Positions 10,337 to 62,407 of a stretch of 64,000 bases of DNA are shown here, in pieces. Positions within the stretch are counted from its first letter, which is position 1. The number at the start of each line of letters is the position of its first letter. The translations under genes and the position numbers were made by a program. Under the pieces are notes generated by a model. That model was not told the DNA's origin and ran no database searches. It saw nothing but the letters and a program-made list of their open reading frames with translations. Source of the DNA: Parolsenella catena (GTDB lineage: Bacteria > Actinomycetota > Coriobacteriia > Coriobacteriales > Atopobiaceae); assembly GCF_003966955.1 (NCBI RefSeq), contig NZ_AP019367.1, positions 186,001-250,000 of the forward strand. Direction: 5' to 3'.

Positions 10337-10367
10337 TTGACACTGTTCGCCGAAGTGTCACTATTAC
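10337..10367 (+). promoter_or_regulatory. Promoter of the cstA leader with overlapping dyad
   Basis: A perfect -35 TTGACA at 10337-10342 is followed by a weak -10 in the CTATTAC region (10361-10367; spacer 17-19). A dyad TGACACT (10338-10344) / AGTGTCA (10354-10360) with a 9-nt spacer covers the -35 and spacer, as a repressor site would. A second loose dyad, AATGTT/AACATT, lies just upstream. The region 10165-10336 otherwise holds nothing recognised. Confidence 0.55.
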
Positions 10368-10428
10368 GAACCATCCACTGGAGATGGCGCGTGGGGATGC
10401 GTGCCCAAGTGAATCGAGAGAGTAACTC

Positions 10429-10470
10429 ATGAACAAGCAGCTATCCATTATTGAGGTCGTCATTATCTAG
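10429..10470 (+). CDS. Putative branched-chain amino-acid leader peptide (13 aa)
   Basis: An ATG preceded by GAGAGAG opens a 13-codon frame reading MNKQLSIIEVVII, then TAG. Seven of the 13 residues are Leu, Ile or Val, including the pairs II, VV and II. Three of the four Ile codons are ATT and the Leu codon is CTA, both unusual beside the ATC/CTC preference of neighbouring genes. The stop codon directly abuts the first arm of a set of competing hairpins ending in a terminator. This is the layout of an ilv-type transcription attenuator, so the product probably has no function beyond sensing charged tRNA supply. Too short for homology support. Confidence 0.65.
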   Translation: MNKQLSIIEVVII

Positions 10471-10556
10471 AACGGGTGGCTGAGTTGCCGCCCGTTGCTA
10501 ACGGGCGGCCTGAAGAGGGGCCGTCGGGTGAGGAACCCAACGGCCCCTCTTTTTTT
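10471..10556 (+). promoter_or_regulatory. Transcription attenuator of cstA (competing hairpins and terminator)
   Basis: Arm 1 AACGGGTGGC (10471-10480) can pair with arm 2 GCCGCCCGTT (10487-10496). Arm 2 also pairs perfectly with arm 3 AACGGGCGGC (10500-10509). The 3' end of arm 3, CGGCC (10506-10510), can pair with GGCCG (10519-10523), inside the left arm of the terminator. The terminator is AGGGGCCGT (10516-10524) with ACGGCCCCT (10540-10548), then a run of T. A ribosome at the leader stop would mask arm 1, leaving 2:3 and the terminator. A ribosome stalled at Ile/Val codons would permit 1:2, freeing arm 3 to break the terminator. Confidence 0.65.
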
Positions 10557-10589
10557 GCGCATGATTCTCTCGCTATGGAAGGAGCGTTT

Positions 10590-12443
10590 GTGAACGGAAT
10601 CGTCGTTATGCTCGTCGCGGCCCTGGTGCTGTTCGGCGGCTACATGCTGTACGGCCGCTGGCTCGCCAACAAGTGGGGCGTTGATGTGAACGCCATCACG
10701 CCCGCCCGCCGTATGGAGGATGGCAACGCCTTCTCCCCGGCCTCTGCCTTTACCGCGTTCTCGCACCAGTTCAGCTCGATCTGCGGTGCTGGCCCCGTCA
10801 CGGGCACGATCGTGGCCATGGCCTTCGGCTGGTTGCCGGTTGTCCTGTGGGTCCTCGTCGGCGGCATCTTCTTTGGTGCCGTCCACGACTTCGGCGCCCT
10901 GTACGCCTCGCTGAAGAACAACGGCAAGTCGCTTGCCCAGCTCGTCGACAAGTACATCGGCAAGACGGGCCGTCGCCTGTTCCTGCTGTTCTGCTGGCTG
11001 TTCTGCATCATCGTCATCGCGGCCTTCACCTCGATGGTCTGCGGCACGTTCGCCCAGTCCGCCAAGGCCTCTGACGCCGTGAACTACGCCGCCGCCTCCA
11101 CGGGCACCATCTCGATCCTCTTCACGTTCGTGGCCATCGCCTTCGGCTGGGCCCGCAACAAGTTCAACCTCAAGGGCGTCTCCGAGTTCGTCGTCGCCGT
11201 CGTCATGGTCGTTGCCATGTTCGCCGTCGGCATGGCCGCCCCGCTGCGTCTCGACACCAACGCCTGGATCGCCATCGTCATGGTCTACCTGGTCTTCGCC
11301 GGCGCCATGCCCATCCAGACGCTCAAGCAGCCGCGTGACTACCTCACCACCATCATGATGCTCGTCATGATCGTCTGCGCCGTCCTCGGCATCGTCGTCC
11401 TCGGCGTCAACGGCCAGGCCACGATGACCGCCCCGGTGTTCACCGGCTTCTCCACCAAGTCCGGCATGATGTTCCCGGTCCTGTTCGTCTCCGTCGCCTG
11501 CGGTGCCCTCTCCGGCTTCCACAGCCTCGTCTCTTCCGGCACCTCCTCCAAGCAGGTCTCCAACGAGGCCGACGCTGTGAAGGTTGGCTACGGCGCCATG
11601 GTCCTCGAGTCCTTCGTGGGCATCCTCGCCATCGTCATCGCCGGCATCATGTGGTCCACGGTCAACACTCTCGGTGCCGATGGCGCCGAGACGGGCACGG
11701 CCTTCCAGGTCTTCGCCCGCGGCGTCGCCAAGGGCATGACGGCCTTCGGCGTCGACGGCACCGTTGCCACCGTGTTCATGCAGATGAACGTCTCCGCCCT
11801 CTGCCTGACCTCCCTTGACGCCGTGGCCCGCATCGCCCGCACGTCCTTCTCCGAGTTCTTCGCCAACTCCAACGACGCTCTGGCCATCGACTCCAAGCAG
11901 GGTGCCATGAAGGTCCTCGGCAACCCCTGGTTCGCCACGGTCGTCACCCTCATCCCGGGCCTCGCCCTCACCTTCGGCGGCTACCTCAACATCTGGCCGC
12001 TCTTCGGCGCCTCCAACCAGCTGCTCGGTGGCATGACGATGATCACGCTCGCCGTGTTCTGCAAGTGCACCGGCCGCAAGGGCTGGATGCTCTACCTGCC
12101 CGTCGCGTTCCTGCTCGTCTGCACGTTCACCTCGCTCGTCCAGAGCGCCATGGGCTGCTATGCGGCCGTCGCCGCCTACGGCTTCTTCGGCACCATCCCG
12201 GCCACCGAGACCACGGCCGCCGTGTCCGTGGCCGCCACGAAGGGCCTGCAGCTCGTCTTCGCCGTGCTGCTGATGGTCCTCGGCCTCATCGTCGCCGTGA
12301 ACTGCCTCAAGGAGCTCTTCACCAAGGAGGCCGGTTCCATGCCCGACGAGGAGCCCGAGTGGACCGAGCTCGGTCGTCAGCACGTCGCCGAGGCCGCCGG
12401 CAAGGCCGCTGCCTCTGGCTCCGCTGCCACCGACGAGGCGTAA
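10590..12443 (+). CDS. cstA: CstA family carbon-starvation protein / peptide or pyruvate carrier
   Basis: A polytopic membrane protein of 617 residues with about 16 helices. It shows the CstA landmarks: an FSHQFSSICGAGPVTG stretch, FGAVHDFGALYASLK, and FHSLVSSGTSSKQ. CstA-type proteins import peptides or pyruvate when nutrients are short. GTG at 10590 is preferred over ATG 10575 because AAGGAG lies 5 nt before it and the N-terminus then matches the family. Expression is probably governed by the leader peptide attenuator upstream. The C-terminus ends in an Ala/Glu-rich cytoplasmic tail. Confidence 0.9.
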   Translation: MNGIVVMLVAALVLFGGYMLYGRWLANKWGVDVNAITPARRMEDGNAFSPASAFTAFSHQFSSICGAGPVTGTIVAMAFGWLPVVLWVLVGGIFFGAVHDFGALYASLKNNGKSLAQLVDKYIGKTGRRLFLLFCWLFCIIVIAAFTSMVCGTFAQSAKASDAVNYAAASTGTISILFTFVAIAFGWARNKFNLKGVSEFVVAVVMVVAMFAVGMAAPLRLDTNAWIAIVMVYLVFAGAMPIQTLKQPRDYLTTIMMLVMIVCAVLGIVVLGVNGQATMTAPVFTGFSTKSGMMFPVLFVSVACGALSGFHSLVSSGTSSKQVSNEADAVKVGYGAMVLESFVGILAIVIAGIMWSTVNTLGADGAETGTAFQVFARGVAKGMTAFGVDGTVATVFMQMNVSALCLTSLDAVARIARTSFSEFFANSNDALAIDSKQGAMKVLGNPWFATVVTLIPGLALTFGGYLNIWPLFGASNQLLGGMTMITLAVFCKCTGRKGWMLYLPVAFLLVCTFTSLVQSAMGCYAAVAAYGFFGTIPATETTAAVSVAATKGLQLVFAVLLMVLGLIVAVNCLKELFTKEAGSMPDEEPEWTELGRQHVAEAAGKAAASGSAATDEA

Positions 12444-61124: not shown

Positions 61125-62407
61125 ATGGCATTCTCAATGCCTTTCGCGTCAAGGAGCTTCGCAATAAGATCCTGCTGACGGTCGGTATCCTCGTCCTCTA
61201 CAGGATCGGGGCATACGTGCCCGTGCCGGGCATCCCCTTCTCGGGGATGCTTTCGGCATATCAGTCGAGCTCCAGCGCGAACAGTGCAATTGCCGTGCTG
61301 AACCTGTTCAGCGGCGGCGCGCTTTCACGCGTTTCGGTGTTCTGCCTGGGCATCATGCCCTACATTACGGCCCAGATCATCATGCAGATGCTTCAGGCCG
61401 TTGTTCCGAGCCTTGGCTCTCTCGCCCGCGAGGGCGAGAGCGGCCAGCGCAAGATCACCCAGTACACGCGCTACGTCACGGTTGGTCTCGCGCTTCTCAA
61501 TGCCGTTGGCTATCTCTTCCTCTTCAAGAGCTCCAGCTTTGGCATTGACTTCTCTCAGGCTGGCATGCCCGAGTGGCTCATGAACACGGTCGTGGTCGTG
61601 TCCATGCTGGCTGGCGCCATCCTCATCATGTGGATGGGCGAGGTCATCACCCAGCGTGGTGTTGGCAACGGGATGAGCCTCATCATCTTCGCCAACATCA
61701 TCTCTGGCCTGCCGACCTCCATCATCCAGTCGCTGCGCACCTCCGAGAACGGTGCTCTGCTCACGGTGCTCATTGTCTTGGTGATCGTTGCCGTCGTGCC
61801 GTTCATCGTGTTCATCGAGCGCGGTCAGCGTCGCATTCCCGTGCAGTACGCCAAGCGAGTCGTTGGTCGCAAGATTCTGGGCGGCCAGTCCACGTACCTT
61901 CCGATCAAGGTCAACACGGCTGGCGTCATTCCCATCATCTTCGCAAGCGCCATCCTGTACCTGCCTGCGCAGATCGCGGTGTTCTTCCCGGGTGTTGGCT
62001 GGATCAACACCTTTGCGAACGCCGTGAGCTCTGGTTGGCTTAACTGGATTCTCTCGGTGCTGCTGATCGTGGGCTTTGCGTACTTCTACACCTCCATGGT
62101 GTTCAACCCCGATGAGACGGCAGACACCCTTCGCAAGCAGGGTGGTTTCATCCCCGGCGTTCGTCCGGGCTCTGCCACGGCCGCTTACATCAAGAACGTG
62201 CTGAACCACCTCACGCTTCCTGGTGCCATCTTCGTTGCCGTGGTTGCCGTTGTGCCCTCCGTCGTCTTCACGCTCACGGGCAACTCGCTTGTGCAGGCGT
62301 TTGGCGGTACCTCGATCCTCATTATGGTTGGCGTTGCGCTCGACACCATCTCTCAGATTGAGAGCCAGCTTAAGACCACGAACTACGAGAACCTTCTGAT
62401 CAAGTAG
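61118..62407 (+). CDS. secY: Preprotein translocase channel SecY
   Basis: The 429-residue, ten-helix protein-conducting channel. Plug and helix 2 region LFSGGALSRVSVFCLGIMPYI, cytosolic loop IVFIERGQRRIPVQYAKRVV, and GGTSILIMVGVALDTISQIE near the end are conserved. GTG 61118 overlaps rplO; GGAAAGG lies upstream. Works with SecE (21.4 kb). A terminator follows. Confidence 0.97.
   Translation: MLNGILNAFRVKELRNKILLTVGILVLYRIGAYVPVPGIPFSGMLSAYQSSSSANSAIAVLNLFSGGALSRVSVFCLGIMPYITAQIIMQMLQAVVPSLGSLAREGESGQRKITQYTRYVTVGLALLNAVGYLFLFKSSSFGIDFSQAGMPEWLMNTVVVVSMLAGAILIMWMGEVITQRGVGNGMSLIIFANIISGLPTSIIQSLRTSENGALLTVLIVLVIVAVVPFIVFIERGQRRIPVQYAKRVVGRKILGGQSTYLPIKVNTAGVIPIIFASAILYLPAQIAVFFPGVGWINTFANAVSSGWLNWILSVLLIVGFAYFYTSMVFNPDETADTLRKQGGFIPGVRPGSATAAYIKNVLNHLTLPGAIFVAVVAVVPSVVFTLTGNSLVQAFGGTSILIMVGVALDTISQIESQLKTTNYENLLIK

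Follow-up and report, generated by a model that had tools for sequence, protein, structure and literature searches.

A putative leader-peptide attenuator with isoleucine-rich leaders upstream of cstA and other genes in Coriobacteriales

The window, by which we mean the whole 64,000-nucleotide stretch of the Parolsenella catena genome that was analyzed, carries on its plus strand a gene for a CstA-family carrier of 617 aa, cstA (10590..12443, GTG start; Pfam CstA, E 7.5e-139), preceded by a compact leader on the same strand that we propose controls it. The region opens with a putative sigma-70-type promoter, TTGACA-N17-ACTATT (10337..10365), which an automatic promoter scan of the window did not report; in a comparison of upstream regions, a TTGACT/A promoter-like site with an AAG-containing spacer stood at a similar distance in most leader-bearing relatives. 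Downstream, a Shine-Dalgarno-like GAGAGAG (10416..10422), 6 nt before the ATG and paralleled by purine-rich sites in the same place in relatives, precedes a leader peptide ORF of 13 codons (10429..10470) that runs from the ATG at 10429 to a TAG stop at 10468-10470, encodes MNKQLSIIEVVII (residues M N K Q L S I I E V V I I) and includes the rare codons CTA and ATT. Five arms, assigned by folding and covariation, follow: arm 1 (AACGGGTGGC, 10471..10480) abuts the leader stop codon and pairs with arm 2 (GCCGCCCGTT, 10487..10496), which may pair instead with arm 3 (AACGGGCGGCC, 10500..10510); part of arm 3 (10504-10510) may in turn pair with 10519-10525 of arm 4 as an antiterminator; and arms 4 (10513..10529) and 5 (10535..10551) are the 5' and 3' halves of an intrinsic terminator, with a T7 tract (10550..10556) as the predicted termination zone.

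In most of the relatives compared for it (L010, L011, L030-L056 and L069-L072), the spacer that separates the -35-like TTGACT/A from the -10-like hexamer of cstA contains a conserved TAAAG, and in the window (10337-10365) it contains GAAG; this could be a regulator site.

Structurally, the terminator (stem 10513-10551 plus T7) sits between the leader ORF and cstA, and the gene upstream of the leader lies on the minus strand, so there is no upstream plus-strand gene for it to serve and it therefore belongs to the cstA 5' region. The 146 nt from 10420 to 10565 have a minimum free energy of −73 kcal/mol (z = −6.9), and 0 of 200 shuffles were as stable. Judged from sequence and its comparison, the element at 10429-10556 is not due to chance, and its architecture recurs before cstA in dozens of relatives. 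None of the families of Rfam 15 fits the cstA leader at gathering score, the sole Rfam match there being a sub-threshold one to BjrC68 over the terminator, and the T-box (RF00230) gave no match at this leader at gathering score or at E up to 1. The original prediction, of a 13-codon leader with four Ile, two Val and one Leu codons that ends exactly at arm 1, is borne out by the sequence at 10429-10470, with the stop codon at 10468-10470 followed directly by arm 1 at 10471.

That the leader would use codons uncommon in this genome also proved correct: it contains one CTA and has ATT for three of its four Ile codons, and in six genes of the window CTA accounts for 0 of 219 Leu codons and ATT for 4 of 103 Ile codons. 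Against a background taken from window genes and downstream genes, the same bias persists in relatives, establishing by comparison both the leader and its codon usage: in 57 leaders Ile makes up 29.9% of codons versus 4.6% in downstream genes, ATT supplies 133 of 207 Ile codons (64%) versus 96 of 1415 (6.8%), and CTA supplies 43 of 86 Leu codons versus 24 of 3151 (0.8%), with an overall Leu share of 12.4% versus 10.3% downstream. The outcome that would have counted against the original prediction, a lack of conservation of these codons among relatives, was not observed. CTA occurs in 40 of the 57 leaders by script, or 41 with L173 corrected (its leader, MTMHLLSIASSIIS, was read by eye and differs from the script assignment), and is missing from the MHS, hydratase and PanE-type leaders and from the g62 cstA leaders. 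Valine, named with isoleucine in the original prediction as the signal, was rejected, as it is depleted in the leaders (4.8% versus 10.4% downstream); the isoleucine part stands, and leucine, through CTA, is added in cstA leaders. In the Salmonella leu attenuator, a synonymous rare CUA raises sensitivity to leucine (PMC1183508); given this precedent, the Ile enrichment and the CTA share, the signal sensed is therefore most likely Ile, plus Leu as a second signal in most cstA leaders.

These codon data also bear on a very unlikely alternative, in which a small molecule causes nascent-peptide arrest of the TnaC/Erm type and the Ile richness is incidental to a hydrophobic arrest motif. The leaders are indeed short and hydrophobic near the C-terminus, as such a mechanism would have it, but arrest peptides conserve residues rather than codons, whereas here the peptide sequences vary widely and yet the Ile content and the preference for the synonymous codons ATT and CTA are retained. 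There are 53 different peptides among the 57 leaders (for example MNKQLSIIEVVII, MGVSTLAEAIIII, MLIGLLDILVLVIS, MFVAAALILSNLIIC and MARLITNIVII), which have only the Ile/Leu pattern in common, and no conserved arrest peptide sequence was found among them.

Evolutionarily, the four overlapping pairings (1:2, 2:3, 3:4 and 4:5) among the five arms are upheld, together with the terminator, by covariation and folding, as had been predicted. In alignment A2 (MAFFT, unfitted), both sides had changed in 7 of 11 pairs of helix 1:2 and 5 of 13 pairs of helix 4:5, and in alignment A4 (57 members), which was fitted to these two helices and with which the unfitted A2 agrees, in 23 of their 24 pairs. Helix 2:3, which was never part of the covariance model, shows 93.5% pairing with double changes in 4 of 6 pairs, a result that 0 of 500 shuffles equaled, and in L051 arms 1, 2 and 3 have changed together. 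Helix 3:4 (6-7 pairs) is kept in 91.6% of cells but is mostly invariant, with few compensatory changes, such as GGCAGC/GCTGT(C/T) for GGCGGC/GCCGTC in L103 and L151-L153, and its swap test was weak (61 of 5000 permutations as good). Under covariation controls none of which fully removes the relatedness of the genomes, then, helices 1:2, 2:3 and 4:5 covary strongly in these alignments, whereas support for 3:4 is weaker.

Comparative folding of the related leaders, a check proposed with the original prediction, pointed the same way. Nascent RNA ending in arm 4 was folded with arm 1 free or masked for the 57 elements: with arm 1 free, 1:2+3:4 formed in 42 of 57, simple folding failing to give it in the other 15, and with arm 1 masked, 2:3 formed in 57 of 57; the same switch was seen in 28 of 1140 dinucleotide shuffles. 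Until arm 5 emerges, the window element itself is predicted to form 1:2+3:4; with arm 1 masked, it is predicted to form 2:3. Once arm 5 has been made, its most stable fold is 1:2+4:5, and antitermination must therefore be kinetic. In these folding models, the predicted outcome depends on ribosome position.

The covariation and the folding switch both weigh against another explanation, about as improbable as peptide arrest, that the leader ORF is mainly a translation or coupling device, the terminator a fixed reduction of expression and the alternative helices by-products of G+C-rich repeats. The mostly invariant helix 3:4 would suit this explanation; against it stand the joint covariation of arms 1, 2 and 3, the covariation of 2:3 outside the model, a masking switch much more frequent than in shuffles, and a codon choice that opposes the genome bias.

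Thus, we consider it highly probable that the element is a ribosome-mediated transcription attenuator responding to the charging of tRNA-Ile (and of tRNA-Leu/CUA in cstA leaders) and controlling a CstA-type uptake carrier. When Ile is sufficient, the ribosome would reach the leader stop codon, which in most of the 57 elements begins 4 nt ahead of the CGGG core conserved in arm 1, and cover arm 1; arm 2 would then pair with arm 3, leaving arm 4 free, so that the 4:5 terminator would end transcription near 10556. Under a shortage of Ile or Leu, the ribosome would stall at the CTA and ATT codons some 6-9 codons earlier, arm 1 would stay free, 1:2 would form and arm 3 would take arm 4 (3:4), pre-empting the terminator and allowing transcription of cstA. 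If the leader were not translated at all, this design predicts read-through. The 'classical' logic of the original prediction thus survives in its pairing scheme but not in its topology, which is not classical, the leader stopping before arm 1. The direction of this response, like the amino acid sensed, is what we infer from the arrangement, and the opposite sign, with Ile shortage turning the carrier off, is likewise a very improbable reading: the terminal Ile codons lie directly before arm 1, and a ribosome stalled there would partly mask it and favor termination, but a starved ribosome would halt first at the first Ile codon or CTA, well upstream, a ribosome at the stop codon would also mask arm 1 so that both states would be off, and shutting off an uptake carrier in starvation makes little physiological sense.

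Taxonomically, covariance model R1 found one strong match in the window's genome (E 6.5e-19) and matches at E<=1e-3 in 92 of 397 Coriobacteriales genomes, a few of the weakest of which resemble plain terminators or antisense matches; among 396 genomes drawn from the phylum, matches to the broader model R2 were confined to Coriobacteriales. No second copy of the element was found in the window's own genome with R1 or R2, where low-scoring R1 matches (248383, which is window position 62383; 53761; 1075461) resemble terminators or chance matches. Upstream regions of cstA in Collinsella and neighbours show the same architecture, with differing peptides and the same Ile pattern, and most Olsenella-, Thermophilibacter- and Parafannyhessea-type cstA genes examined are without the element. 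In Collinsella provencensis (G185; L155, L156), cstA is present twice; an Ile leader of its own precedes each copy, and one copy is followed by a T-box and ileS. Two weak tandem model matches lie near a contig end in a genome from a third family (L154; G049:C5:5574 and 5741).

The element precedes cstA in relatives, but CstA is only one of several targets. In 13 genomes, in two families, it precedes an MHS-family metabolite:H+ symporter (best NCBIfam match TIGR00883, below its curated cut-off), which amounts to 13 of the 15 genomes with that symporter. The two exceptions are G239, where no element was found at the symporter, and G145, where the element appears split by an insertion. The split attenuator of G145 lies over two contigs (L102, C8 end; L235, C14), and the sequence at the break is foreign, which would fit an insertion sequence in the terminator loop. 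Further copies precede a 2-oxopent-4-enoate-hydratase-like gene in G001, G113 and G196 (the G113 copy of the gene reads with stop codons) and a PanE-like gene, named from sequence without a profile, in G196. In G001 (L105, 4655-14775), the hydratase-like gene is followed by xanthine-dehydrogenase-type subunits, an amino-acid-type ABC transporter and an Amt/P-II fusion. Among 20 genomes that were picked for having the element and are related to each other, the symporter (at least 71% identity) was present in all 8 whose element lies at the symporter and in none of the 12 whose element lies at cstA. This pattern of exclusion between cstA and the MHS symporter is suggestive, and the element seems to have been transferred between carriers that are not homologous.

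Physiologically, IlvC (KARI) is absent from the window's genome, as it is from G001, G168, G185, G243 and G244, and is present in 14 other genomes compared, one of them partial; because of this absence, the window's organism is probably auxotrophic for Ile and Val. Its single dehydratase match (PF00920) scores like the second copies of prototrophs and so is probably another dehydratase. Eight prototrophs have a T-box immediately before ilvD, most of the T-box scores being below the Rfam gathering score. A search for a related leader at the ilv loci of five prototrophs and at the only PF00920 locus of the window's organism found none; biosynthesis thus appears to rely on T-boxes and uptake on the leader-peptide switch. 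A sub-threshold T-box was also seen upstream of pheS in the window's genome (G000:C1:1438329-1438574). CstA takes up pyruvate in E. coli, and dipeptide use is impaired in Salmonella cstA/yjiY mutants (PMC7730263); candidate substrates of CstA here are therefore peptides or 2-oxo acids, and branched-chain supply in these forms may be its role. It is possible, though in our judgement not quite probable, that an isoleucine attenuation regulon in Coriobacteriales tracks function rather than gene: T-boxes would govern biosynthesis, and the switch would stand before the carrier, be it CstA or the MHS symporter, that supplies branched-chain amino acids in the form of peptides or 2-oxo acids. If true, carriers of the CstA and MHS families would have a role in branched-chain supply.

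Most known cases of leader-peptide attenuation concern biosynthetic operons. Ribosome-mediated attenuation has been described for ilv, leu and others (PMC1183508, PMC1262725, PMC5794164), and a literature search of partial coverage found, in keeping with the original prediction, no described attenuation of a CstA carrier, nor of an MHS carrier, and no report combining Coriobacteria, leader peptide, attenuation and isoleucine. The enterobacterial ilvGMEDA, ilvBN and leu attenuators share with the element a short leader rich in branched-chain amino acids, competing hairpins and an intrinsic terminator, and those of leu also a rare CUA as the sensitive regulatory Leu codon (PMC1183508); however, they target biosynthesis, whereas the element here targets a carrier, its Val codons are depleted, its leader ends before arm 1, and it has five arms, of which arm 1 would be masked by a ribosome at the stop codon. 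Closer in lineage, the ilvB leader peptides and LEU element of Actinomycetota (PMC1262725; Corynebacterium ilvBNC, PMC11857589) likewise combine branched-chain codons with a terminator, but they precede ilvB or leuA, and R2 is without a match outside Coriobacteriales. The Leu-rich ilvD attenuator of S. aureus (PMC5794164) is also a Gram-positive case of leader-peptide attenuation by one branched-chain amino acid, yet with ilv biosynthesis as target and Leu as signal. T-box riboswitches (RF00230) similarly sense tRNA charging via transcription control, but the cstA element has a translated leader ORF and lacks an RF00230 match. In E. coli, a CstA-family carrier is likewise controlled, by CRP, Fis and CsrA, but leader-peptide attenuation is not described there (PMC7730263). 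What is new relative to these systems is the class of target, conservation across the lineage, the five-arm topology and the exchange of carriers. An attenuator conserved over an order of abundant gut bacteria (including Collinsella), before uptake carriers of uncertain substrate, would make regulation a testable hint to the substrates of CstA and the MHS carrier in organisms that are probably Ile/Val auxotrophs, and the five-arm topology gives a clean prediction that departs from the textbook design: if it is true, loss of leader translation should raise expression, opposite to trp-type attenuators.
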